Shown here: piece after piece, positions 38,944-49,895 of the stretch
Numbering within the stretch: the stretch's first letter is position 1
Layout: the number at the start of each line of letters is the position of its first letter
Assembly: GCA_002686085.1 (NCBI GenBank)
Contig: NZAC01000001.1
Location: forward strand, 1-64,000
Source: Roseibacillus sp.
GTDB taxonomy: Bacteria > Verrucomicrobiota > Verrucomicrobiia > Verrucomicrobiales > Akkermansiaceae
DNA: 64,000 nt
Reading direction: 5' to 3'
The notes under the pieces: generated by a model
What the model saw: only the letters and a program-made list of their open reading frames with translations
The model's database searches: none
What the model was told of the DNA's origin: nothing
Program-made: the position numbers and the translations under genes

Positions 38944-39110
38944 AGGAAAAGTCTGAGCAGGAGAAATGCCAAGGCAAGGAGAGGAAAATTTTGCTCGAGG
39001 CTACCGCGACACTTTTGCCCGCAATCGTAACGATGCAACTGTTTTACTTCAAAGTTCCCGTCGCATAAGAAGTGTATTGCGTGAGCGCTTTGAATTTGCT
39101 CACTGATTCT

Positions 39111-39893
39111 ATGAAGTTACTGATGGTCCGAGTGTTACACCTTCTGATGGTGATGGGGTTTGTCGGGTTTCAAAGTGGTCTCAGGGCACAAACTTTGAGT
39201 GAAATGTTGACTGAATGGGATTCTGCCTGGCCGCAGCGGGCTGGGATTACGGCAGTTGGTTATTCGCAGAAACAGGATTACTCGCTGGACAATTTCACGA
39301 TCGACTTGCCTATCGAAGTTGACCCAACGCTCCTCCTCTCGGAGATAGAAAACGACGTGTCTCAATGGGGGACAAAGGCGGATTTCTGGATTCTACCCTT
39401 CCTGAATGTTCATGCCATGGTTGGAGTGGTCGATGGGCAGACGGGTGTGGGGCTGACGCCGGCAGCGGTTGAGCTGATCGGCACCGACCAAATTGCCGTC
39501 AAATACGATGGCACTGTGTATGCGGGTGGAACAACCCTCGCTTACGGACAGGACTGGTGGTTTTTATCCGTTACCGGTATTTACGCCTACACCGACGTTA
39601 AAGGGGAGATAGAGTCGATCCCTAGCTGGATGATCATGCCCAAGTTCGGTGTGCGCCGGGAGGCTTTAGAGCTCTGGTGCGGAGCCACTTATCAGAGTGT
39701 CGCAGAGCGTCAATCGGGGGTTTTTGACCTGGATGGTCTCGTTCTCAATTATGATCTAGAGCTCGAGGCCAAAGAGGGATGGAATGCCCAACTTGGATTC
39801 CGTTACAGATTTTCGGATAACGTGTTGCTCACTCTTGAAGCCGGGTTGGGTAATCGAAAGTCCGTGACTGGGCATCTCGAATGGAGATTTTAG
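39111..39893 (+). CDS. Putative outer-membrane beta-barrel protein
   Basis: About 260 residues from ATG 39111 (other in-frame Met codons at 39072 and 39123). Signal peptide at the start (KLLMVRVLHLLMVMGFVGF, then SGLRAQ). The rest alternates hydrophobic and polar residues with many aromatic residues: ADFWILPFLNVHAMVGVV, DQIAVKYDGTVYAGG, DWWFLSVTGIYAYTDV, NAQLGFRYRFSDNVLL and GHLEWRF. The C-terminal residue is Phe, the BAM recognition feature of outer-membrane barrels. No specific family recognised. It lies between the LON-domain gene (divergent) and lactate dehydrogenase gene (convergent). Function unknown; possibly a small porin or structural barrel. Confidence 0.72.
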   Translation: MKLLMVRVLHLLMVMGFVGFQSGLRAQTLSEMLTEWDSAWPQRAGITAVGYSQKQDYSLDNFTIDLPIEVDPTLLLSEIENDVSQWGTKADFWILPFLNVHAMVGVVDGQTGVGLTPAAVELIGTDQIAVKYDGTVYAGGTTLAYGQDWWFLSVTGIYAYTDVKGEIESIPSWMIMPKFGVRREALELWCGATYQSVAERQSGVFDLDGLVLNYDLELEAKEGWNAQLGFRYRFSDNVLLTLEAGLGNRKSVTGHLEWRF

Positions 39894-39930: not shown

Positions 39931-41070
39931 TCAGATAAGGTGATTGGGAAAATCAGTAACCCGCTCGCAGGCCAGTTGTTCCATAACTTGTTGGAGCTGC
40001 CGCTTAATCATGGAGATGGTGTGATCGCCACCCGAACGACCGAGCGCGCCTACTCCATACATGAAAGAACGCCCAAGGAACGTGAAACGAGCGCCACTGG
40101 CCAGAGAGCATGCAATATCAGGCCCTCCTCGCAAGCCACTGTCGATCATGACGGTAAGCTTGTCTCCGTAGGATTCGGCGAGGGAAGGAACCGGCCTGAT
40201 TGTCGATTGTCCTGCGTCGAGTTGCCTTCCACCGTGATTGGATGCGATAATGCCGTCCGCCCCTAAACGGTGAACTTTTTCGCAATCTTCCTCGTTGACG
40301 ATACCCTTGACGACGAGTTTTCCGTTCCAGCGATCCCGGATAGCCTTAATGCGGTCCTCGTTCAATCTGCCCGAGAAGGTCTTGTTCATGAAGAGACCGA
40401 GATGCTTCATGCTGAGACCCTTGGGGATGTAGGGAGTCATTGTTTTGAATTTAGGCACTCCCGCGGCCAGCTGTGAAAAAGACCAAGTTGGGTGCAGCAT
40501 CATCTGAATGACATTCCTCGGGGTCATTCGAGGAGGAATAGATAGGCCATTCCGAATTTCCTTGGGTCGATACCCGAATGTCGGCGTGTCAGCGAGAATG
40601 ACGAGAACGGGGCAGCCCGCAGCGCTGGCCCTTGCAAGGATCTTATCTCTCAACTCGTCTTCTGCGGGGTGATAGAGCTGGAACCATGCTTTGCCCCCTG
40701 TAATTTCAGAGACTTCCTCGATACTGGCAGTGCCAACCGTGCTGAGAATAAATGGAATATTATGTTCCGTTGCCGCCTTGGCCAGAATCTCGGTGGAGCG
40801 AGGCCACATCAGGCCTTGAAGACCAATGGGAGCGATGCCGAAGGGTGCGTCATAAGTCTGACCGAAGAGCTCGGTGCGAAGATCGGAGCCCGCGTAATCA
40901 CGAATATAATAAGGCTGCAGACGAATATCGCGGATCTCCTCGGTGTTGCGTTGCAGGTTAATATTGGAATTACACCCACCCTCAAGATAGTCAAAGGCGA
41001 AGCCCGGCATGCGGCGCCGAGCCTTATCCCGAAGATGTTCGATGGAGGGGTGTCTTGAGTTAATGGGCAT
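39931..41070 (-). CDS. FMN-dependent L-lactate dehydrogenase (LldD-like alpha-hydroxy-acid oxidase family)
   Basis: 379 residues, minus strand. FMN-dependent alpha-hydroxy-acid dehydrogenase family: FAFDYLEGGCNSNINLQRN (family D-Y-x-x-G-x-x-x-E-x-T-x-x-x-N), APFGIAPIGLQGLMWP, STVGTASIEEV, WFQLYHP, ADTPTFGYRPKEIRNG, LVVKGIVNEEDCEK, ASNHGGRQLD (the S-N-H-G-G-R-Q-L-D active-site signature), MIDSGLRGGPDI and LGRSFMYG (FMN phosphate binding). Role: oxidation of L-lactate, or a related 2-hydroxy acid, to pyruvate, passing electrons to the respiratory chain. It is last in the leftward operon with rhaB (17-bp gap), so it likely consumes the lactate produced by the BMC pathway. No membrane helix and no obvious encapsulation peptide. 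Confidence 0.87.
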   Translation of the reverse strand: MPINSRHPSIEHLRDKARRRMPGFAFDYLEGGCNSNINLQRNTEEIRDIRLQPYYIRDYAGSDLRTELFGQTYDAPFGIAPIGLQGLMWPRSTEILAKAATEHNIPFILSTVGTASIEEVSEITGGKAWFQLYHPAEDELRDKILARASAAGCPVLVILADTPTFGYRPKEIRNGLSIPPRMTPRNVIQMMLHPTWSFSQLAAGVPKFKTMTPYIPKGLSMKHLGLFMNKTFSGRLNEDRIKAIRDRWNGKLVVKGIVNEEDCEKVHRLGADGIIASNHGGRQLDAGQSTIRPVPSLAESYGDKLTVMIDSGLRGGPDIACSLASGARFTFLGRSFMYGVGALGRSGGDHTISMIKRQLQQVMEQLACERVTDFPNHLI

Positions 41071-41087
41071 AGGACGCAGCTTTGCTT

Positions 41088-42554
41088 TTAAAGGAGGCTC
41101 TGAAATCGCTGGAGGTTATCCTCCCAGGGAGTTGGATCGGAAGGGGAGAAGACCTTCAGAGGAATGGATTGCCTGATAAGCTCTCTTCCCGCAGCAATGT
41201 CGGGCAGGTCACCTGTGGCAACCATCTGGGTTATCAAATTTCCGCATGCGGTAGCCTCGATGGGGCCTGCGTGGACAGGAACTCCACAGCACGTGGCGAT
41301 AGATTGAGCAAGGAGCTCGTTTTTAATGCCGCCTCCACCCATGTGGATTCGGTTCAGGTTCTTGCCAGTAATTTCTCGTAGCTGATCGAATCGTACCCGG
41401 TGCTTGAAGGCAACGCTTTCGGCTACCAGCCTGAGTATCTCGCCCTTTCCTCTGGGAGGCTTCTGGCCGGTGTCTCGACATAGTGTCTGAATTCTCTCAG
41501 GCATGCCGCCGGGTGATTTAAGTGCATCATGATCCGGATCCACAAGTGATCCGAAGGCCGGAGCGTTTTCCGCGAGCTCATCCAGCTCGGCGTAGGATGA
41601 TTTATCACCTTCAGAGCGCCATTGACGTACGCACTCCTGAAAGAGCCATGCCCCAGAAATATTACGAAGGAAACGCGTGGTGTTCTCTACACCTTGCTCG
41701 TTGGCCCATCCAACACGGAAAGCTTCCTCGGTGAGAATAGGATCGCTAAGCTCGGTTCCAATAATTGACCACGTGCCCGAGGATATAAAGGCATAGTCAC
41801 CGTCTCCGGGAATTCCGGTGACCGCAGCACCTGTGTCATGAGTAGTGGTTGCAATCACAGGAAAATCCCCGCCGAGGTTGGTCGCTACAACCTCTCGAAG
41901 GTTGCCTAGAGGTGTTCCGGGCTCGACGACTTCACCAAATATCTTTCGGGGAAGCCCCAGTCCGTCAATCACGTCCCACGCCCAATCCTTGGTGATTGGA
42001 GAAAACAGCTGAGTGGTGGAGGCGTTTGTGCGCTCTACCGAGATGCGACCCGTGAGCCAATAAGCGAGAAGGTCGGGAATCATGACAAAATGGGAAGCAT
42101 TCAAGAGAGCGGCACCATCCCTCACAGCTTCGCTGAGAAGCTGATGGGAGGAATTGAGGAAGAAGGGCATGATTCCTGTCTCTTGATACATCTTGGCGTT
42201 CCCGTAGCGGCGCTCACATTCCTGCTCCATCCCGTCAGTCCGGGAGTCCCGATATTGATGGGGGAGCCCGAGGAGACGACCCTGCGCGTCCAAGAGAGCG
42301 AAATCCACTCCCCAGGTATCAATTCCAAGAGATTGAATCCTCTCGCCATATCTCGCGACCGCCAATTTGAGGCCGTAAAGGATTTCCCGGTAAAGGCCTA
42401 CGACATTCCAAACCAACCCGCCTGGTAAATTGGTCCCGGGATTCTCGAACCGATGGACTTCTTCGAGATCTAGATTTTTCAGGTCGGTCCGACCCGCCAA
42501 GAGACGTCCACTACCCGCTCCAAGGTCAATCGCGAGGTACACCTTATCGTTCAT
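41088..42554 (-). CDS. rhaB: Rhamnulokinase (FGGY carbohydrate kinase)
   Basis: 488 residues, the normal RhaB length. FGGY-family features: N-terminal phosphate-1 motif YLAIDLGAGSGRLLAG, LGIDTWGVDFALLD, the substrate region LPHQYRDSRTDGM, TTTHDTGAAVTGIP, the S-S-G-T-W-S signature (YAFISSGTWSIIGTE) and MGGGGIKNELLAQSIA. Catalyses ATP-dependent phosphorylation of L-rhamnulose to L-rhamnulose-1-phosphate, the step before the aldolase at 48.8 kb. RhaB and the fuculokinases are related; the T-W-S and G-G-G-I-K-N pattern favours RhaB. Transcribed leftward, 135 bp after the DeoR gene. No isomerase (RhaA/FucI) or transporter is in the window. Confidence 0.88.
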   Translation of the reverse strand: MNDKVYLAIDLGAGSGRLLAGRTDLKNLDLEEVHRFENPGTNLPGGLVWNVVGLYREILYGLKLAVARYGERIQSLGIDTWGVDFALLDAQGRLLGLPHQYRDSRTDGMEQECERRYGNAKMYQETGIMPFFLNSSHQLLSEAVRDGAALLNASHFVMIPDLLAYWLTGRISVERTNASTTQLFSPITKDWAWDVIDGLGLPRKIFGEVVEPGTPLGNLREVVATNLGGDFPVIATTTHDTGAAVTGIPGDGDYAFISSGTWSIIGTELSDPILTEEAFRVGWANEQGVENTTRFLRNISGAWLFQECVRQWRSEGDKSSYAELDELAENAPAFGSLVDPDHDALKSPGGMPERIQTLCRDTGQKPPRGKGEILRLVAESVAFKHRVRFDQLREITGKNLNRIHMGGGGIKNELLAQSIATCCGVPVHAGPIEATACGNLITQMVATGDLPDIAAGRELIRQSIPLKVFSPSDPTPWEDNLQRFQSLL

Positions 42555-42689
42555 GGCTTTAGCGAGGGTTGAGGATCTGGGCTTCTTTGAGCTTCAGCAG
42601 ATAAAACACACCGGCCAAGGGACAGGGTCAGGATACGTTTTCGAAGCGGAAGAGAAGTTAAGTGGGTCAACACCTTAGCAGGGACCCCA

Positions 42690-43448
42690 TCAGGCTTTCA
42701 ACACTTCAATCTGCTGATTGGTAAGAGCGGCGATGAATCCCGGATCACTGTCCTCATTGGTTATGACAGTAGTAAGCTCGGAGATTTCAGCGAAGAAGAA
42801 AGACGACTTGAGTCCAATCTTGGTGGAGTCCGCAAGGCAGAAGACATTCTCCGAACATTCGATCACTCGTTCCTTGAAGGATGCCTGCCGGGAGTTGGTC
42901 TCAGAGATTCCCCGCTCTAGGTGAATTCCATTACAGGAGAAGAACATCTTGTGGATATTGTGCTTACGCATAGTGGACTCTGCTGGCAGGCCTATGTAAG
43001 AGCGGGATCGTGGCTCGTAGATTCCTCCGGTGCAGACGATATCGATTCCCTCTCGATCTGCGAGGGCAGTAATTACATTATGAGCATTGGTTAGGACGGT
43101 CAGGTGGAATCCCGGGAGATGTTCAACAAGGGTGAGAGCAGTTGAAGACGCATCGATAAAGATCGTATCATTAGGTTCGATCTGCTTTGCTGCAAGACGG
43201 GCGATGGCGGTCTTTGCGTCTCGATTCACTTGCTTACGCTCGTTGAGAGCAAGCTCCACCCGGCTTTGATTTGGGCGAACCGCTCCTCCGTGGATACGGA
43301 GGAGCTCACCCCTTTGCTCTAAGCTTTCGAGGTCTTTCCGCACTGTTTCGTCTGTGACCTCGAGTGTCGTCGCAAGATCTGTGGTCCTCACGGACTCTTC
43401 CTCCGAGAGCTTGGCGATAATAAACGATTGGCGTTCAATGGGTAGCAT
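42690..43448 (-). CDS. DeoR-family transcriptional regulator of the BMC locus
   Basis: 252 residues. N-terminal winged-helix DeoR domain: RQSFIIAKLSEEESVRTTDL, VTDETVRKDLESLEQRGELL and RIHGGAV, the classical family signature. The C-terminal sugar-phosphate sensing domain (DeoRC) has IFIDASSTALTLVEHL, LTVLTNAHNVITAL, CTGGIYEPRSRSYIG and LADSTKIG. Family members bind an operator near their own genes and respond to a phosphorylated sugar intermediate. It is divergent from the microcompartment operon with a 112-bp shared region containing phased direct repeats and a palindrome. The expected inducer is rhamnulose-1-P or fuculose-1-P, inferred from the neighbours. Confidence 0.9.
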   Translation of the reverse strand: MLPIERQSFIIAKLSEEESVRTTDLATTLEVTDETVRKDLESLEQRGELLRIHGGAVRPNQSRVELALNERKQVNRDAKTAIARLAAKQIEPNDTIFIDASSTALTLVEHLPGFHLTVLTNAHNVITALADREGIDIVCTGGIYEPRSRSYIGLPAESTMRKHNIHKMFFSCNGIHLERGISETNSRQASFKERVIECSENVFCLADSTKIGLKSSFFFAEISELTTVITNEDSDPGFIAALTNQQIEVLKA

Positions 43449-43470
43449 CAGAATAGGGGGTTGAACAGGG

Positions 43471-43542
43471 TTGGGAAATTCTGCGTTTGAGTTGGGAATA
43501 TCTTGGAATATGATTGACTAGTCAAGAAAACCCAAGCATACC
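43471..43542. promoter_or_regulatory. Divergent promoter/operator of the BMC locus
   Basis: Between the divergent DeoR and pduL genes, three direct copies of TTGG(G)AA start at 43471 (TTGGGAAAT), 43492 (TTGGGAATA) and 43503 (TTGGAATAT), spaced 21 and 11 bp, about two turns and one turn of DNA. Next to them is the perfect 12-bp palindrome TTGACTAGTCAA (43514-43525), whose left half also makes a good -35 (TTGACT). A weak -10 candidate CATACC follows after 17 bp (43537-43542). This layout fits repressor sites overlapping the rightward promoter. DeoR binding is inferred. Confidence 0.55.
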
Positions 43543-43560
43543 CGTGTCGATTTCTGGAAA

Positions 43561-44235
43561 ATGCCAGTTGATTCCAACATTCCCCGGGCAGTCGTTGAGC
43601 ATATGGTTCGCGAGCAGGTCTACGCGAAGCTCGGAGTGGCTCTCCCAAGCTCTGCGTCCGCTCCGAACGGTTTGGTTGTTAACGTCAGCGCGAGACACTG
43701 CCATCTGTCGCCGCGGGCGGTGGAGGAGCTTTTTGGGCCTGGCTATGAATTGACACCGATGAAGAGTCTTTACCAGACCGGTGCCTTCGCAGCGAAAGAG
43801 ACTGTCACTCTTGTTGGACCGCGGAGTCGAGTCATCTCTAATCTCAGGATTCTTGGTCCCTGCCGGGAGTTCAATCAGGTTGAATTGGCATACACGGATG
43901 CCATCGCTCTTGGCTTTGATATTCCTCTTCGCCTTTCAGGTGATATCCAGGGGAGCCCCGGATGCATGCTTATGGGGCCCAAGGGCTTTTTCGAGATGCC
44001 TGAGGGTGTGATCCGCGCAGCGCCCCATGTCCACATGAGTCCAGAAGATGCTGCTTACTATGATGTAAGCCATAAGGACACGATGAAGATGAAAGTTCAT
44101 GGCTCCTGCCCAGTGACTTTTGAGAACGTGGTTGTCCGAGTGGACTCCAGCTTCAATCTCGAGGTGCATATTGACACCGATGAAGGGAATGCCTGCGGGC
44201 TACAGACAGATACTTACTGTGAGCTTATCAAATAG
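43561..44235 (+). CDS. pduL: PduL-type phosphate acyltransferase (microcompartment PTAC)
   Basis: 224 residues. PduL has two beta-barrel domains and two metal ions. Metal-binding motifs visible: VSARHCHLS (H46, H48), APHVHMS (H156, H158) and VHIDTDEGNACG (H203). Role in a BMC: acyl-CoA + phosphate to acyl-phosphate + CoA, here lactyl-CoA to lactyl-phosphate, which recycles CoA inside the shell. Residues about 8-25 (PRAVVEHMVREQVYAKLG) form an amphipathic helix before the first barrel, an encapsulation-peptide-like signal. It is first gene of the rightward operon, directly downstream of the operator region. Gene symbol by family. Confidence 0.92.
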   Translation: MPVDSNIPRAVVEHMVREQVYAKLGVALPSSASAPNGLVVNVSARHCHLSPRAVEELFGPGYELTPMKSLYQTGAFAAKETVTLVGPRSRVISNLRILGPCREFNQVELAYTDAIALGFDIPLRLSGDIQGSPGCMLMGPKGFFEMPEGVIRAAPHVHMSPEDAAYYDVSHKDTMKMKVHGSCPVTFENVVVRVDSSFNLEVHIDTDEGNACGLQTDTYCELIK

Positions 44236-44274
44236 CTCGCGAAACGATGAACCAAACAACCAAAGGATAAGAAT

Positions 44275-44547
44275 ATGAGACAAGCTCTCGGACTAGTTGA
44301 AACAAAAGGATACGCCGGCAACGTAGAGGCCGCTGATGCTATGGTAAAAGCTGCGGATGTCAGCTTCATCAAGCAGATCTCCATCGGAGCAGGATTCCTG
44401 ACCACGATCGTGCAGGGAGATGTGGGAAGCGTAAAGGCGGCAGTCGACGCTGGAGCCGAAGCTGCTGACAAGGTGGGAGAGTTGATTAGCTCTCACGTCA
44501 TTCCCAGACCCCATGAAGATCTTCTGAAACGTTTTGATCTCTCATAA
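44275..44547 (+). CDS. BMC-H hexameric microcompartment shell protein 1
   Basis: 90 residues, a single BMC (PF00936) domain: ALGLVETKGYAGNVEAADAM, KAADVSF, the pore loop ISIGAGFLTTIVQGDVGSVK, and the final helix region AAVDAGAEAADKV with SSHVIPRPH. Six copies form a hexagonal tile of the shell facets; the pore loop (S-I-G-A-G) lines the central channel for metabolites. Shine-Dalgarno AAAGGATAA upstream. It is 39 bp after pduL and 18 bp before a second BMC-H gene. Confidence 0.95.
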   Translation: MRQALGLVETKGYAGNVEAADAMVKAADVSFIKQISIGAGFLTTIVQGDVGSVKAAVDAGAEAADKVGELISSHVIPRPHEDLLKRFDLS

Positions 44548-44565
44548 CCAAAAACCTCTGAAATC

Positions 44566-44838
44566 ATGGCTAAACAAGCAGTAGGAATTATAGAAACGCG
44601 GGGCCTGGTCTCGATAATCGAAGCCTCCGATGCCGCGCTGAAGGCAGCAGACGTCTCGATGCTGGGATGGACAAAGATTGGAGCCGGACTCGTTACCGGG
44701 TTTTACGCTGGTGATGTCGCAGCAGTAAAGGCGGCGATAGATGCGGGTGCGGAGGCGGCCTCGCAGGTAGGTGAGGTTGCCTCTACCCAGGTGATCCCTC
44801 GCCCTCACGAGGATCTCTCGAAATTGGTGGAAATGTAA
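44566..44838 (+). CDS. BMC-H hexameric microcompartment shell protein 2
   Basis: 90 residues, a single BMC domain: QAVGIIETRGLVSIIEASDA, KAADVSMLGW, the pore loop TKIGAGLVTGFYAGDVAAVK, AAIDAGAEAASQVGEV and TQVIPRPHEDL. It is clearly paralogous to the preceding shell protein (same length, same C-terminal V-I-P-R-P-H-E-D-L) but with a different pore-flanking sequence (Y-A-G-D-V against V-Q-G-D-V), so the two tiles may pass different metabolites. Structural role: shell facet hexamers. Followed after 24 bp by the kinase gene. Confidence 0.95.
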   Translation: MAKQAVGIIETRGLVSIIEASDAALKAADVSMLGWTKIGAGLVTGFYAGDVAAVKAAIDAGAEAASQVGEVASTQVIPRPHEDLSKLVEM

Positions 44839-44862
44839 TCTCGGCTCTCCCCCGCAATCATC

Positions 44863-46041
44863 GTGAAGATTCTCGTAGCCAACCTTGGCTCAACGTCTTT
44901 CAAATTCCGCCTATTTGAAATGGGTGAGGATGAGGAGAGTCAGTTGGCAGAGGGTGGGTATGAGCGTGTCTCCGATCATGGAGAGGCCATTCGTGATGCT
45001 CTCGTATCGCTGGAAAACGATGGAGTCGCATCCCCGGGTGAGATCGAAGCGGTGGGATTTAAGACTGTGCTCGGACGGGGTTTAAGTGGATGTGTTGAGG
45101 CTGGTGACGAGGTGATCGAGGCCCTTGAGGGTTTTGCCGACGTTGCGCCGGCGCATAACCCGGCCTATGCAGATGGGATCAGGCAGTTCCGGGAAATCCT
45201 TCCCGAAGCCCGTCGGGTTGCTCTTTTTGAGACTGCATTTTACCAATGGCTGCCGGAGGCTGGGCGACGATATGCCGTTCCCCAGGCATGGTATGATGTC
45301 GGCATCAGGCGGCATGGCTTTCATGGAGCGAGTCATAAGTTCATTGCCGAGAGATCTGCGGAGATGCTGGGACGTCCCGACGTTGCGAAGCTTGCTCGTG
45401 GGCTGTATCAGGAAGGGCCTCAAAAGGTGGAGCATCCTCTTCGCGTGATATCCTGTCATCTCGGCGGAAGCAGCTCGGTTACGGGTATCCGAAATGGGGT
45501 AGCAATCGGCACGAGCATGGGGTTCTCCCCTCAGAGCGGTGTGCCGCAGAATAACAGAGTGGGTGATCTTGATGCGGGTGCTTTGCCTTATGCGGCCAAG
45601 GCTCTTGGTCTCACGATCGAGGAGGCGTCTCAGCAGCTCTCTTCAAAGAGCGGGTTGCTAGGGGTTTCTGGTGTCGGTAACGATATGCGCGATGTGCGTT
45701 CAGCTGCGCTCGAAGGGAACCCCGAGGCTCAAATTGCGGTTGAGCTCTTTATTCATGAGGTTCGGCGATGGGCTTCTTCAATGCTTTTCGAATTGGGAGG
45801 GCTTGATGCCTTCGTTTTTACCGCCGGTATCGGGGAGAATAACCCATGGCTCAGAGCAGCTGTCTGCGAGGGCCTGGAAGGATTGGGAATAGTGCTCGAT
45901 ACAGACAGAAATGAAGTCGCTGGCGGTGGCGAAGCCAAGGTCAGCGGGGAGGAATCGCCAGTTCAGATTCTGGTTATACCAGCCAATGAGGAGCTGGTTC
46001 TTGCAAGAGAGGTTTATCAGAAAGTTACGAATTTAAATTAA
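44863..46041 (+). CDS. ackA: Acetate/propionate kinase family (lactyl-phosphate kinase role proposed)
   Basis: 392 residues from a GTG start. ASKHA-fold kinase: KILVANLGSTSFKFRLFEM (family N-x-G-S-S-S-x-K-x-x-x-F), RRHGFHGASHKFIAER (family R-Y-G-F-H-G-x-S-H), SCHLGGSSSVTGIRNGVAIG (family H-L-G-G/N-G-x-S), TSMGFSPQSGVPQNNRVGDLD and FTAGIGENNPWLR (family F-T-x-G-I-G-E-N). Catalyses acyl-phosphate + ADP to acid + ATP. In this locus the acyl group should be lactyl (from PduL), giving lactate and ATP. It lies between shell genes, so it is part of the operon. No encapsulation peptide is apparent, so it may act outside or be recruited by others. Confidence 0.9.
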   Translation: MKILVANLGSTSFKFRLFEMGEDEESQLAEGGYERVSDHGEAIRDALVSLENDGVASPGEIEAVGFKTVLGRGLSGCVEAGDEVIEALEGFADVAPAHNPAYADGIRQFREILPEARRVALFETAFYQWLPEAGRRYAVPQAWYDVGIRRHGFHGASHKFIAERSAEMLGRPDVAKLARGLYQEGPQKVEHPLRVISCHLGGSSSVTGIRNGVAIGTSMGFSPQSGVPQNNRVGDLDAGALPYAAKALGLTIEEASQQLSSKSGLLGVSGVGNDMRDVRSAALEGNPEAQIAVELFIHEVRRWASSMLFELGGLDAFVFTAGIGENNPWLRAAVCEGLEGLGIVLDTDRNEVAGGGEAKVSGEESPVQILVIPANEELVLAREVYQKVTNLN

Positions 46042-46055
46042 ACAACAATAGAACA

Positions 46056-46355
46056 ATGGGAAAACAAGCAGTAGGACTTCTCGAGACACGCGGTCTGTGT
46101 TGTCTCGTTAGTGGCGTAGACGCAGCTCTTAAGGCTGCAAGCGTCGAGTTGACAGGACCAATGAGGAGCATAGGCAGTGGCCTTTGTAATGCAGTGGTAA
46201 CTGGCGATGTGGCCGCAGTAAAAGCTGCAATTGATGCAGGTGCTGATACTGCGGCTAGTCTAGGCGAGGTTGTCACCGCGCACGTGATAGCTCGTCCGGA
46301 CGAGGCAATTGACCCCGTGATTGTGGGTGAGAAGCCAGCTCCGAAGTCGAAATAG
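46056..46355 (+). CDS. BMC-H hexameric microcompartment shell protein 3 (cysteine-containing)
   Basis: 99 residues, a single BMC domain: QAVGLLETRGLCCLVSGVDA, the pore loop RSIGSGLCNAVVTGDVAAVK, AAIDAGADTAASLGEV and AHVIARPDEAID, then a short basic/proline tail (GEKPAPKSK). It differs from the first two by vicinal C15-C16 in strand 1 and C44 just after the pore-loop glycine, and by the longer C terminus. Function: shell tile, with a pore environment that could be thiol-sensitive or metal-binding (inference). Starts 14 bp after the kinase stop. Confidence 0.93.
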   Translation: MGKQAVGLLETRGLCCLVSGVDAALKAASVELTGPMRSIGSGLCNAVVTGDVAAVKAAIDAGADTAASLGEVVTAHVIARPDEAIDPVIVGEKPAPKSK

Positions 46356-46374
46356 GTAAGGATCCCTGAGAGTA

Positions 46375-46683
46375 ATGTTTCTCGCAGAGGTCATTGGTCA
46401 CGTGGTGGCCACCAAGAAAGACGAGAGTATGGTGGGCCAGAAGCTCCTCATCCTTCGTCCAAAGCTTGTCGACGAGGCCGATCCGACGCAATTTCGCGAT
46501 GGTTCCAACACTATTGTGGCCGTTGACACGGTTGGTGCAGGAGAGGGGGACATGGTCATGTTCTGCCAAGGTAGTTCCGCAAGGCAGGCTGGCGGTCTGA
46601 AGCAGCTTCCTGTTGATGCCGCCGTTGTTGCGGTCGTGGACAGCGTCGATGTTCTTGGAGGTAAAGTCTATGACGGGTCATAG
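46375..46683 (+). CDS. BMC-P pentameric vertex shell protein 1 (EutN/CcmL family)
   Basis: 102 residues. EutN/CcmL (PF03319) beta-barrel features: MFLAEVIGHVVATKKDESMVGQ (family form M-x-x-G-x-V-x-G-x-V-V-A-T-x-K-x-x-x-L-x-G, quoted in part), KLLILRPKL, IVAVDTVGAGEGDMVMFCQG (family V-A-V-D-x-V-G-A-G-x-G-D-x-V), SSARQA and VDAAVVAVVDSVDV. Five copies cap shell vertices. It has the full canonical pattern, unlike the two later BMC-P proteins. Located 19 bp after BMC-H 3 and upstream of the aldehyde dehydrogenase gene. Confidence 0.94.
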   Translation: MFLAEVIGHVVATKKDESMVGQKLLILRPKLVDEADPTQFRDGSNTIVAVDTVGAGEGDMVMFCQGSSARQAGGLKQLPVDAAVVAVVDSVDVLGGKVYDGS

Positions 46684-46712
46684 GTCTTACTCAAAATTGA
46701 AAAAGGAACACT

Positions 46713-48221
46713 ATGAGTATTAAGATTGATCAGGACATGCTCCGGGGAGTAGTGGAGAAGGTGATGGCAGACCTGGGGCGCCCGGTCAGCTCAGCTGGAG
46801 TTCCCGCTGCGGGGTCAGGCTCCGCCCCGCAGACCGCATCGCCTCCAGGAGGCAGCTGTGGCTGTCATTCTGGTCCAAAATCAGGAGCTGGACACTTTGG
46901 TGTCTTTGATTGCGTAAACACGGCGGCTCATGCGGCTCAGGACTCATTTCTTCAATTGAAGAATCTTGGGTTGGAGGGGCGCTCTAAAGTGATTGAGATC
47001 GTCAAGAGTGTCTGTGCAGCCAACACGGAGAGCTGGGGTCGGTTTGAATTACAGGAAACAGGAATCGGCCGCTTGGATCACAAGGTCGCAAAGTTGGAGA
47101 TTATGGACAAGGTGCCTGGGGTTGAGTGGCTCCAGCCCTATGCTCTAAGCGGAGATAATGGCATTACCCTTGAGGAGTATGCCCCATTCGGAGTGGTGGG
47201 TGCCATTCTTCCGGTAACGCATTCGGTTCCAACCTTGACCGGGAATGTGATCAACATGGTCGCCGCGGGGAATGCGGTGGTCTTCAATCCTCATCCGGGT
47301 GGGGCTAAAAGCGCAGCTTTGGCTGCCCGGGAATACAACCGTGCGATCGCAAAAGAGCTCGGGATTGAAAACCTGATCTGCGTCATTGAAAAACCAACTC
47401 TGGAATCCTTTGAGCAGATATCGAAACACGATCTGATCGCGATAATGGTGATCACCGGAGGGCCAGCTGTTGTTAAGGCGGCCATGACTTCTGGGAAGAG
47501 GGCCATTTGTGCAGGTCCCGGTAATCCCGTCGTAGTGGTGGATGAAACCGCAGATCTCGCAGCGGCAGCCCAAAGCGTGATCGAGGGAGCTTCTTTTGAT
47601 AACAACCTTCTCTGCATCGGGGAGAAGGCCGTGTTCGTAGTCGATTCGGTTTATAAGGAATTTATGGCATCGCTTGAAAGTGCAGGTGCTGGAAAGTTGA
47701 CTGGAACGCAGCTGGAGAAGTTAACGAGGGTGGCCTTTACCCAGAAAGATGATGGGGGTGGATGCTCCCACGCGGTTGTGAATCGCGACTTCGTTGGGGC
47801 GAGTCCGGCCCGTCTCGCTGCAGCTGCTGGTGCGAGCTTCAGTGATCGTTGCGAGCTGCTGTTCGCGGAGGCGGATAAGAGTCACCCCTATGTGCAGGAA
47901 GAGCAGATGATGCCAATGGTTCCTATTGTTCCAGTGGCAGACTTTGAGACTGGAGTGGAGCAAGCGAAGGTAGCGGAGCACGGCTACCGTCATTCAGCGA
48001 TAATTCACTCAACGAATGTGGGTCATATGACTCACATGGGGCGCCAGATGGACACGACAATTTTTGTCAAGAACGGTCCGTGTGTTGCAGGTCTCGGTCT
48101 GGGAGGCGAAGGGTATTTGAGCTATTCGGTTGCCACTACAACAGGCGAGGGAATTACAACGCCCAAAACCTTTACCCGGGTCAGGCGTTGCGTGATGGTA
48201 GAAAACCTGAGGATCGTATAG
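46713..48221 (+). CDS. CoA-acylating aldehyde dehydrogenase (PduP/EutE-like), microcompartment cargo
   Basis: 502 residues. CoA-dependent aldehyde dehydrogenase: GVVGAILPVTHSVPTLTGNV, NPHPGGAKSAALAA, MVITGGPAVVKAAM, CAGPGNPVVVVDETADL and the catalytic Cys C301 in FDNNLLCIGEKA. Oxidises an aldehyde with NAD+ and CoA; here L-lactaldehyde to lactyl-CoA is expected. Residues about 6-22 (DQDMLRGVVEKVMADLG) form an N-terminal amphipathic encapsulation helix, followed by a flexible Pro/Gly/Ser linker containing C49 and C51 (SCGCHSG) before the catalytic domain at about 65. Strong AAAGGAA Shine-Dalgarno. Produces NADH inside the shell, while no NAD-recycling alcohol dehydrogenase is encoded here. Confidence 0.93.
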   Translation: MSIKIDQDMLRGVVEKVMADLGRPVSSAGVPAAGSGSAPQTASPPGGSCGCHSGPKSGAGHFGVFDCVNTAAHAAQDSFLQLKNLGLEGRSKVIEIVKSVCAANTESWGRFELQETGIGRLDHKVAKLEIMDKVPGVEWLQPYALSGDNGITLEEYAPFGVVGAILPVTHSVPTLTGNVINMVAAGNAVVFNPHPGGAKSAALAAREYNRAIAKELGIENLICVIEKPTLESFEQISKHDLIAIMVITGGPAVVKAAMTSGKRAICAGPGNPVVVVDETADLAAAAQSVIEGASFDNNLLCIGEKAVFVVDSVYKEFMASLESAGAGKLTGTQLEKLTRVAFTQKDDGGGCSHAVVNRDFVGASPARLAAAAGASFSDRCELLFAEADKSHPYVQEEQMMPMVPIVPVADFETGVEQAKVAEHGYRHSAIIHSTNVGHMTHMGRQMDTTIFVKNGPCVAGLGLGGEGYLSYSVATTTGEGITTPKTFTRVRRCVMVENLRIV

Positions 48222-48227
48222 ATCGCT

Positions 48228-48488
48228 ATGTTGATGTGTCGAGTAGTTGGGAATGCGGTTGCGACCCACAGTCATCCAAGTCTGAAGGGGTTTAGCATGC
48301 TTCTTTGCAGGCAAGAGAACTCGGATGGAGAGTCTAATGGGGCGCCGCCCTTTGTGGCGATCGACCTTTTTGGTGCAGCGCTCCACCAGCGTGTTTTCGT
48401 AAGTACTGACGGAATCGGTGCGCGGGGAATCGTGGACGATGAGAGTTCGCCGGTTCGAAATTATATTCAGGGTCTTATCGACGAGTAA
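48228..48488 (+). CDS. BMC-P pentameric vertex shell protein 2
   Basis: 86 residues (ATG 48228; ATG 48234 is an equally good start). EutN/CcmL fold: MCRVVGNAVATHSHPSLKG (family V-x-G-x-x-x-A-T-x-x-x-x-x-L-x-G), SMLLCRQENS, PPFVAIDLFGAALHQRVFVS (in place of the usual V-A-V-D-x-x-G-A-G-x-G-D-x-V), and SPVRNYIQGLID in the position of the family's A-V-x-A-I-I-D. Short and divergent but clearly the same fold. Multiple BMC-P paralogues are normal in this BMC type. It lies 6 bp after the dehydrogenase gene and 2 bp before the next BMC-P gene. Confidence 0.9.
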   Translation: MLMCRVVGNAVATHSHPSLKGFSMLLCRQENSDGESNGAPPFVAIDLFGAALHQRVFVSTDGIGARGIVDDESSPVRNYIQGLIDE

Positions 48489-48490
48489 TT

Positions 48491-48811
48491 ATGCGGATTG
48501 GACAAGTTATTGGGAAGGTTACCATGGGGGTGCAGGATCCGGCTCTACGGGCTACCCGCTGGCTGCTGGTCAATCCGCTTGAGGGAGAGCAGTTGAATAC
48601 AGCATGCGATATTGAGCCTCGTATGACATCCCTGCCTTCTCTGGTGGTTTATGACGATCTGGGCGCAGGAGAGACCGATATTGTGGGGTTTGTGGAGGGA
48701 GCAGAAGCGACCGCTCCTTTTAAGGTTCCGACCCCTATCGATGCCATCACTGTGGCAATTTTCGACTGGATTGAACATCACCCGTATCCTCCAGAAGACG
48801 ACGACGATTAA
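48491..48811 (+). CDS. BMC-P pentameric vertex shell protein 3
   Basis: 106 residues. EutN/CcmL family: MRIGQVIGKVTMGVQDPALR (G-x-V-x-G-x-V pattern), ATRWLLVNPL, SLVVYDDLGAGETDIVGFVE (family V-A-V-D-x-L-G-A-G-x-x-D-x-V-x-x-x-x-G) and TPIDAITVAIFDWIE, then an acidic tail (PPEDDDD). Longer than BMC-P 2 because of an insert around residues 35-48. Separated by 2 bp from the upstream shell gene and 10 bp from the aldolase gene, so translation is probably coupled. Confidence 0.93.
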   Translation: MRIGQVIGKVTMGVQDPALRATRWLLVNPLEGEQLNTACDIEPRMTSLPSLVVYDDLGAGETDIVGFVEGAEATAPFKVPTPIDAITVAIFDWIEHHPYPPEDDDD

Positions 48812-48821
48812 CGAAGGAAGT

Positions 48822-49895
48822 ATGAAAAAGGTATTTACAGGCCGTGATGTAGAAGGGCTTCTCCGGGAGGGAAAGGGCTTGGACTCGATCCCCGAGGGAG
48901 CACTCCTGACGCCGACAGCTAAAGACGTGATCAAAGAGTCCCAATCCCGTCGCAGACGGGTTGAGTCGGATGCTCCTGAGCCTGTGGTGCCGGGGGTTCC
49001 CGACTATGAGTTCAAATGGGCCCCAGGAAGTGATCCAAAATCTCCGGAAGAAATCGCAAGGTTCTTCCGTTCGAAGGAACTCACGGATCTTAAGGAGAGG
49101 ATGGTTGATATTGGCGACCGGATGTGGAGAAAGAACTATACTGATGGGAATGGTGGGAATCTCACAATCCGAGTCGGAGATAACTTGGTTCTGTGTACTC
49201 CCACGCTGATCTCCAAAGGCTTCATGAGGCCGGAGGATATGGCGCTGATCGACCTTGATGGAAATCAGCTGGCTGGGACGAGGCGACGCACTAGTGAGTG
49301 TCTGACTCATATGGCGATCATGAAGAGGCAGCCAAAGGCGAAGGCCTGTTGTCATGCTCATCCACCGCATGGAACTGCCTTTGCGGTCGCAGGTGTGCGC
49401 CCCCCCACCTGTATGATCCCAGAGGCTGAGGTGTTTCTTGGAGAGATAGGTATGGCGGATTACCAGACGCCGGGCACTCCAGCGAACGCTAAGGCCGTTG
49501 GTGAAGCAGCGATTGAGCATATGTCGGTTCTGATGATCAACCACGGAGTGATTACGTGGGGTAAGGACATAGAGGACGCCTACTGGAAAATGGAAAACAC
49601 GGATGCTTATTGTCAGACGGTCCTGCTCGCCGCTCAGTTAAAGGGAAAAGATCTCCTGACCATCACTGGTAGTCAGGCAAAGGAGTTGATCGAGCTTCGG
49701 TCAAGCCTAGGAATGGAGGATAAACGCGCAGGTTGGAAGGAGTGCGAGCTATGTGATAACTCCGAGTTCCGACCGGGAGCGGTCTGCGAATTACCGGGAG
49801 GTCAACCCGGAGCGCCTGGGGGTGAGCTCGATGCGAATGCGGAGGAACTCGTAAAATCGCTGACTGAACAGATCATGGGACAGCTTTCGGGATAA
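48822..49895 (+). CDS. Class II sugar-phosphate aldolase (L-fuculose/L-rhamnulose-1-phosphate type), microcompartment cargo
   Basis: 357 residues from ATG 48822 with GAAGGAAG Shine-Dalgarno (the frame runs on from 48651). Residues about 1-60 are an extra N-terminal region with PEGALLTPTAKDVIKES. Class II aldolase (AraD/FucA) core: MVDIGDRMWRKNYTDGNGGN (family G-N-x-S/G-x-R), CTPTLISKGFMRPEDM, HMAIMKRQPKAKACCHAHPPH (zinc-binding His-x-His), INHGVITWG and a late His/Glu segment. Splits the ketose-1-phosphate to DHAP and L-lactaldehyde. C-terminal residues about 339-357 (NAEELVKSLTEQIMGQLSG) form an encapsulation-peptide-like helix after a Pro/Gly linker. The sugar could be rhamnulose- or fuculose-1-P; the rhamnulokinase nearby favours rhamnulose. 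Confidence 0.91.
   Translation: MKKVFTGRDVEGLLREGKGLDSIPEGALLTPTAKDVIKESQSRRRRVESDAPEPVVPGVPDYEFKWAPGSDPKSPEEIARFFRSKELTDLKERMVDIGDRMWRKNYTDGNGGNLTIRVGDNLVLCTPTLISKGFMRPEDMALIDLDGNQLAGTRRRTSECLTHMAIMKRQPKAKACCHAHPPHGTAFAVAGVRPPTCMIPEAEVFLGEIGMADYQTPGTPANAKAVGEAAIEHMSVLMINHGVITWGKDIEDAYWKMENTDAYCQTVLLAAQLKGKDLLTITGSQAKELIELRSSLGMEDKRAGWKECELCDNSEFRPGAVCELPGGQPGAPGGELDANAEELVKSLTEQIMGQLSG

Follow-up and report, generated by a model that had tools for sequence, protein, structure and literature searches.

A bacterial microcompartment (BMC) locus in a genome that contains no known isomerase for the sugars it would be expected to process, and that carries the dehydrogenase thought to recycle its NADH on another contig, raises the question of what the organelle degrades and where its electrons go. 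We have analysed such a case in a stretch of 64,000 nucleotides from Roseibacillus sp. (the window), which lies within a 204,505-bp contig of a 3.95 Mb genome with a completeness of 96.5%. An earlier note on this DNA had described a complete microcompartment locus at positions 39,931 to 49,895, assigned to the Planctomycetes-Verrucomicrobia (PVM) type and directed towards rhamnulose. Both parts of this description hold: all 13 genes were recovered in profile searches with family matches far beyond chance, and the gene families, the synteny and a RhaB that is nearest to rhamnulokinases agree with the assignment. Judged by its sequence, the locus is a member of this known kind and ordinary as a locus. 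Its points out of the ordinary are a flavin mononucleotide (FMN)-dependent lactate dehydrogenase (FMN-LDH) beside it, the location of the usual NADH-recycling gene on a different contig and the absence of the isomerases RhaA and FucI from all 15 genomes of the genus. The redox set-up is a variant, and the locus is moderately interesting for the questions that it makes testable. Such organelles are thought to govern the removal of fucose- and rhamnose-rich algal polysaccharides by marine Verrucomicrobiota.

The locus consists of two divergent arms separated by a spacer of 112 bp. The ten genes of the rightward operon follow each other at distances of 2–39 bp, as expected from the tiny gaps noted earlier, whereas in the leftward arm, which runs from DeoR through a RhaB-like kinase to FMN-LDH, the respective gaps measure 135 and 17 bp. 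The features are as follows, with the family matches in brackets:

39931–41070, minus strand: FMN-dependent L-lactate dehydrogenase, LldD-like, without targeting extension, proposed to convert lactate to pyruvate (PF01070 1.4e-112; PRK11197 286 bits and LldD 248 bits, both under cut-off)
41088–42554, minus strand: RhaB-like rhamnulokinase of the FGGY kinase family (TIGR02627 426 bits, the best NCBIfam model, cut-off 528; fuculokinase 105 bits)
42690–43448, minus strand: DeoR-family regulator, counterpart of PvmA (PF00455 2.1e-45; PF08220 1.6e-13)
43492–43542, plus strand: candidate DeoR operator TTGGGAATATCTTGGAA (43492–43508) and predicted promoter TTGACT-17-CATACC (43514–43542), with a function suggested by uniqueness in the genome and conservation
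43561–44235, plus strand: PduL-type phosphotransacylase with N-terminal extension (PF06130 2.6e-71; PRK15070 over cut-off; alignment to 5cuo)
44275–44547, plus strand: BMC-H 1 (PF00936 5.8e-27)
44566–44838, plus strand: BMC-H 2 (PF00936 2.4e-25)
44863–46041, plus strand: acetate/propionate-family kinase (acetate kinase family 1.2e-91; TIGR00016 298 bits, over cut-off)
46056–46355, plus strand: BMC-H 3 (PF00936 1.8e-21)
46375–46683, plus strand: BMC-P 1 (PF03319, EutN_CcmL, 2.7e-28)
46713–48221, plus strand: coenzyme A (CoA)-acylating aldehyde dehydrogenase (AldDH) with an encapsulation-peptide-like N-terminal helix and a Gly/Pro/Ser-rich linker (PRK15398 581 bits, cut-off 403)
48228–48488, plus strand: BMC-P 2 (PF03319 1.3e-18)
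48491–48811, plus strand: BMC-P 3 (PF03319 2.9e-15)
48822–49895, plus strand: class II aldolase of the fuculose/rhamnulose-1-phosphate type (PF00596 2.1e-43; alignment; AlphaFold2 model mf29dce0f4a79)

The most likely start of the aldolase is 48,822 instead of 48,651, since the longer open reading frame (ORF) would overlap with the preceding BMC-P gene and homologues begin at the former position. The three BMC-domain matches found genome-wide all map to this region, which is thus the sole microcompartment locus of the genome. Two details of the earlier description have to be adjusted. The rightward kinase is present but is more exactly a member of the acetate/propionate family, and the aldolase, which had been placed behind the sugar kinase in the divergent operon, concludes the rightward operon, which means that kinase and aldolase do not share a transcript.

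To define the relationship of the locus to its relatives, we compared it to about 30 loci of the phylum (each up to 20 kb), about 40 further stretches of the family and 80 named loci, in sets that overlap and whose counts thus do not reflect independent events. The order from PduL to the aldolase is the same in nearly every complete locus of Verrucomicrobiota and Kiritimatiellota compared and constitutes the standard verrucomicrobial arrangement, which leaves the proposed novelty in gene order unsupported. The locus shares with the published PVM organelle, a fucose/rhamnose microcompartment (PMC4207490, PMC8857213), the PF00596 class II aldolase as signature enzyme, an AldDH combined with PduL, a DeoR regulator combined with an acetate-kinase-family gene, a shell of three BMC-H and three BMC-P proteins and the synteny with loci of the Planctomycetes-Verrucomicrobia-Chlamydiae group. 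It lacks a gene of the lactate/malate dehydrogenase (LDH/MDH) family, which is usual but not universal within such loci, and an aromatic residue at position 77 of PduL, described as a majority trait (PMC4784909). We treat neither as defining, because 26 of 71 flanked and otherwise syntenic loci contain neither PvmL, the LDH/MDH-family protein of PVM loci, nor an MDH, and because the aromatic residue fails as a trait in the loci of this phylum. The placement of aldolase and PduL, in which a deviation would have spoken against the assignment, was assessed by similarity and synteny, with the closest aldolases found in other loci of the same genus, followed by those of the same family. The aldolase is 98 to 76% identical to its counterparts in close relatives, which are metagenome assemblies carrying the name Roseibacillus sp. 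or Akkermansiaceae bacterium.

Among characterized systems, the PVM (or PV-BMC) locus of Planctopirus limnophila (pvmABDEGHIJKLMNO; PMC11958385, PMC4207490) shares the class II aldolase, the acylating AldDH, PduL, acetate kinase, DeoR and both types of shell proteins, but, according to published accounts, forms a single gene run, whereas the locus described here contains a divergent arm, has gained FMN-LDH and is devoid of the LDH/MDH gene. The verrucomicrobial PV-BMC loci of Puniceicoccaceae and Akkermansiaceae (PMC8857213, PMC13174399, PMC5615132) have the same set of three BMC-H and three BMC-P proteins and, in most loci compared, an identical rightward order. Conversely, in many of them the aldolase is followed by PvmL or an MDH, and RhaA or FucI has been retained in the genomes of most sister genera. 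A divergent DeoR-RhaB arm is also found outside the genus (L036, L060–L063, L118–L120, L164 and L303 of our comparison sets). The fucose/rhamnose glycyl-radical microcompartment GRM5 shares a homologous class II aldolase and a DeoR regulator (PMC4207490), but the locus in the window contains genes neither for a glycyl-radical enzyme nor for PduS or an alcohol dehydrogenase.

On this basis, we consider it probable that the locus encodes a PVM-type catabolic microcompartment for L-rhamnose, and probably also for L-fucose, which is wired for respiration in a marine Roseibacillus-like member of the Akkermansiaceae. In the proposed pathway, RhaB would phosphorylate rhamnulose and the encapsulated aldolase would cleave the resulting rhamnulose-1-phosphate into dihydroxyacetone phosphate and lactaldehyde. 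The latter would be oxidized by the encapsulated AldDH to lactyl-CoA with concomitant formation of NADH, converted by PduL to lactyl-phosphate under return of CoA, and turned by the acetate-kinase homologue into lactate and ATP. Finally, FMN-LDH would oxidize lactate to pyruvate and pass the electrons to the respiratory chain. The assignment of the first step is consistent with the scores of the RhaB-like kinase, which, although remaining below the cut-off of the rhamnulokinase model, is far closer to this family than to fuculokinases.

The described last step is reflected in the genomic context of the lactate oxidizer. In loci of the genus with sufficient flanking sequence, FMN-LDH adjoins RhaB, and the sequences of the genus form one group in a phylogenetic tree (97/91). 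The enzyme is located next to FucI in genus g158 and next to RhaB but away from the microcompartment genes in genera g157 and g5. Elsewhere, the unrelated LutAB proteins are encoded beside RhaB or DeoR (L050, L058, L061–L063, L156, L170, L305, L311) or beside PduL (L304), and in one genome of the same genus (G459, locus L156) the neighbourhood of the aldolase includes RhaB, a gene resembling GlpX, LutA and LutB. Taken together, a lactate oxidizer of either type was found in 16 of 71 loci with full flanks, including 14 of 22 with RhaB but only 2 of 49 without it, although these loci are not all independent. Its conservation in the genus and the equivalent position of LutAB elsewhere indicate that the oxidizer belongs with the locus, as the earlier note had assumed, and this context suggests that the FMN enzyme may work like an LldD. 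The underlying idea is already known, since an operon of LutABC and a rhamnulokinase accompanying a metabolosome was noted in one Chthoniobacteraceae genome, SH-KS-3 (PMC11596606). Both systems share the logic that lactate from the organelle is oxidized by an enzyme encoded together with rhamnulokinase, with a LutABC complex in SH-KS-3 and an LldD-like flavoenzyme unrelated to it in our case. In the literature searched, we came across no account of an arrangement with the FMN enzyme.

The enzymes may be encapsulated by means of their terminal extensions. In an alignment of the aldolase, the catalytic glutamate (E159) and three zinc-coordinating histidines (H178, H180 and H241) are invariant, and its AlphaFold2 model (mean pLDDT of 75.9, based on 10 sequences) contains an N-terminal mini-domain (residues 1–47), the core, a disordered linker (311–336) and a C-terminal helix (338–356) that resembles an encapsulation peptide. 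Both end extensions are missing in aldolases from a large genus of small genomes in the family, which we take to be Akkermansia; these match only residues 55–298 of the window protein, and the stretches fetched around them contain no microcompartment genes. In three of these stretches (L069, L072, L073) we observed this version of the PVM aldolase, accompanied in L072 and L073 by nearby genes for a FucI-type isomerase and a RhaB-like kinase. AldDH and PduL carry N-terminal extensions, in the case of AldDH also in a set of compared loci, and the zinc ligands of PduL are conserved.

Both arms would be controlled by DeoR from the shared spacer, with repression relieved by the sugar or its phosphate. 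The spacer contains the candidate operator followed by the predicted promoter. In the genome, the 17-mer TTGGGAATATCTTGGAA is the sole site without mismatch. Slightly altered copies occupy the equivalent position in the genus and, in part, in sister genera, as read from a DNA alignment excluding row L106. In P. limnophila, a rhamnose-inducible promoter is driven by PvmA, a DeoR-family protein presumed to act as a repressor (PMC11958385). A search for further members of the regulon with this operator yielded four sites with two mismatches, which were rejected as they lack an evident link to methylpentoses.

Several observations weigh against the proposed function. First, the FMN enzyme finds its best curated models among L-lactate dehydrogenases but stays below their cut-offs (550 bits for LldD and 376 bits for PRK11197), for which reason we do not claim membership in the LldD family and another 2-hydroxyacid might be its substrate; its nearest relative in the PDB with a full-length single match is (S)-mandelate dehydrogenase. 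Second, the proposed targeting helices did not stand out in a helical-moment test. Third, residue 77 of PduL (rPduL numbering) is an alanine instead of the Tyr or Phe reported for most pvm loci (PMC4784909), with a distribution among our overlapping sets of 76 Gln, 26 Ala, 6 Tyr and 1 His, and 13 not read. Finally, the pathway lacks a recognizable source of rhamnulose, because the genome contains no known isomerase gene and the genomes of the genus neither RhaA nor FucI. In searches whose control genomes behaved as expected, RhaA and FucI were missing in 15 of 15 genomes of the Roseibacillus-like genus (with a mean completeness near 90%), compared to their presence in 18 and 24, respectively, of the 49 genomes searched, all from other genera of the family, and RhaI, searched in the window's genome, was not found there. 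The earlier remark that the route lacks its isomerase is therefore correct for the locus, but the gene is not simply encoded elsewhere. Several members of genus g6 are also devoid of both RhaA and FucI.

One explanation would be a pathway that is complete, with the isomerase and perhaps also transporters residing on a plasmid lost during metagenome binning in every genome of the genus. The named genomes of the genus are indeed metagenome assemblies, and fucoidan genes of marine isolates were found on megaplasmids that are not recovered in such assemblies (PMC8857213). We still regard this as somewhat unlikely in light of the consistent absence in 15 genomes compared to the frequent detection elsewhere, and of a sister genome assembled as a single contig (G363), which carries both RhaA and FucI on this contig. 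Alternatively, the organelle might serve another 1-phosphoketose or depend on an unrecognized isomerase, instead of processing free rhamnose or fucose via a known one. The lack of RhaA, FucI and RhaI in the window's genome, the Ala77 of the genus PduL and sugar-isomerase-like TIM barrels in the genome, such as one on contig C17 beside an RbsD/FucU homologue, are compatible with this view. It appears improbable given the RhaB orthologues beside the locus and, in some members of the genus, an additional bifunctional RhaD aldolase/alcohol dehydrogenase, which both point to rhamnulose-1-phosphate. The gene of this bifunctional enzyme is found beside the locus in L110, L111, L156 and L264, apparently as part of a second, non-encapsulated route. 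The genus is a place to look for a new isomerase. Among 21 xylose-isomerase-like proteins of the window's genome, one is an ordinary xylose isomerase encoded next to a gene similar to sugar kinases, another is EboE, and RhaI matches none of the scanned ones. As a lead only, the mentioned C17 region (L210:6608–10511) combines the RbsD/FucU homologue with a GFO oxidoreductase, a zinc dehydrogenase and the xylose-isomerase-like barrel.

The second question concerns the NADH formed by AldDH. PvmL, as the only other dehydrogenase of the PVM locus, was assigned a core role as alcohol dehydrogenase that recycles NAD+ (PMC4207490), and the regeneration of NAD+ inside the shell so far rests on this single inference from gene content. 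In many loci, PvmL is located downstream of the aldolase, mostly within about 200 bp. It is missing at this position in the window and in other loci of the genus with a downstream flank, several of which contain a DinB-type and an A2M-type gene instead, and many further loci of the Akkermansiaceae likewise leave this position vacant. The PvmL orthologue of the genome is found on contig C6 (L066:8818–9744), alone amid unrelated genes and not preceded by the candidate DeoR operator. The earlier claim that the whole route from rhamnulose to pyruvate is encoded in one place thus does not apply to the recycling of NADH. In a phylogenetic tree, the C6 protein falls within a group from the Akkermansiaceae in which every other member is linked to a microcompartment locus (92/89 with g157; 13-row group 90/99), which suggests that its gene has probably moved out of the microcompartment operon. 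In an early gene call, five loci seemed to contain a gene (cluster c1) running towards the aldolase, which scoring against PvmL identified as an antisense shadow of PvmL.

A sequence comparison of PvmL hints at its substrate. Enzymes of the LDH/MDH family reduce 2-oxoacids and are not known to act on aldehydes. In an alignment to the LDH from Geobacillus (1ldn), the position of its Gln102 is occupied by an arginine in 50 of 53 PvmL sequences, with three divergent Cerasicoccus proteins as exceptions, and an arginine at this site is the textbook determinant of specificity for malate over lactate. An MDH of another subfamily takes the place of PvmL in Pelagicoccus, in f3 genomes and in several genomes of the family that bear the label Luteolibacter or Akkermansiaceae, and all 21 MDHs of this slot type, including the unlinked one of the window's genome, contain the arginine at the specificity position. 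This conservation, together with the replacement of PvmL by a true MDH, suggests that NADH leaves via oxaloacetate and malate rather than via lactaldehyde and propanediol. The model from the literature, in which PvmL reduces part of the lactaldehyde to 1,2-propanediol, so that lactaldehyde is dismutated in the organelle and the oxidizer of lactate plays an ancillary part, can draw on the published assignment of PvmL (PMC4207490) and on the retention of an orthologue in this genome, but it appears unlikely in view of the named residue and replacement, and of the unlinked location of this orthologue, which lacks the candidate operator. A more far-reaching reading, less likely than not as a whole, is that PVM organelles respire instead of dismutating their substrate, with internal NADH re-oxidized through oxaloacetate and malate by PvmL or a true MDH, lactate oxidized by a flavin or Lut enzyme under shared regulation, propanediol not being a product, and the genus employing an unrecognized methylpentose isomerase. 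The exchange of PvmL for MDH, the conserved arginine and the repeated occurrence of unrelated lactate oxidizers make the proposed recycling of NAD+ amenable to concrete and inexpensive biochemical tests.

Some compared loci contain additional dehydrogenases or enzymes. In L054, L056, L057 and L156, an extra BMC-domain ORF is located beside a gene that, by eye and weak similarity, looks like PduS/RnfC and could provide another way of re-oxidizing NADH, while L061–L063 encode a zinc alcohol dehydrogenase, whose N-terminus resembles an encapsulation peptide, downstream of the aldolase and malate dehydrogenase. In genus g158 (L118:16968–19133, also L120 and L163), a single PVM operon carries two tandem class II aldolases, the second without the C-terminal encapsulation-type helix, which possibly divide fuculose- and rhamnulose-phosphate between them. 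Finally, a 273-residue protein encoded next to FMN-LDH in the window (39072–39893) has a signal-like start, an end resembling an outer-membrane barrel and no Pfam match, and an ORF of similar size adjoins FMN-LDH across the genus.

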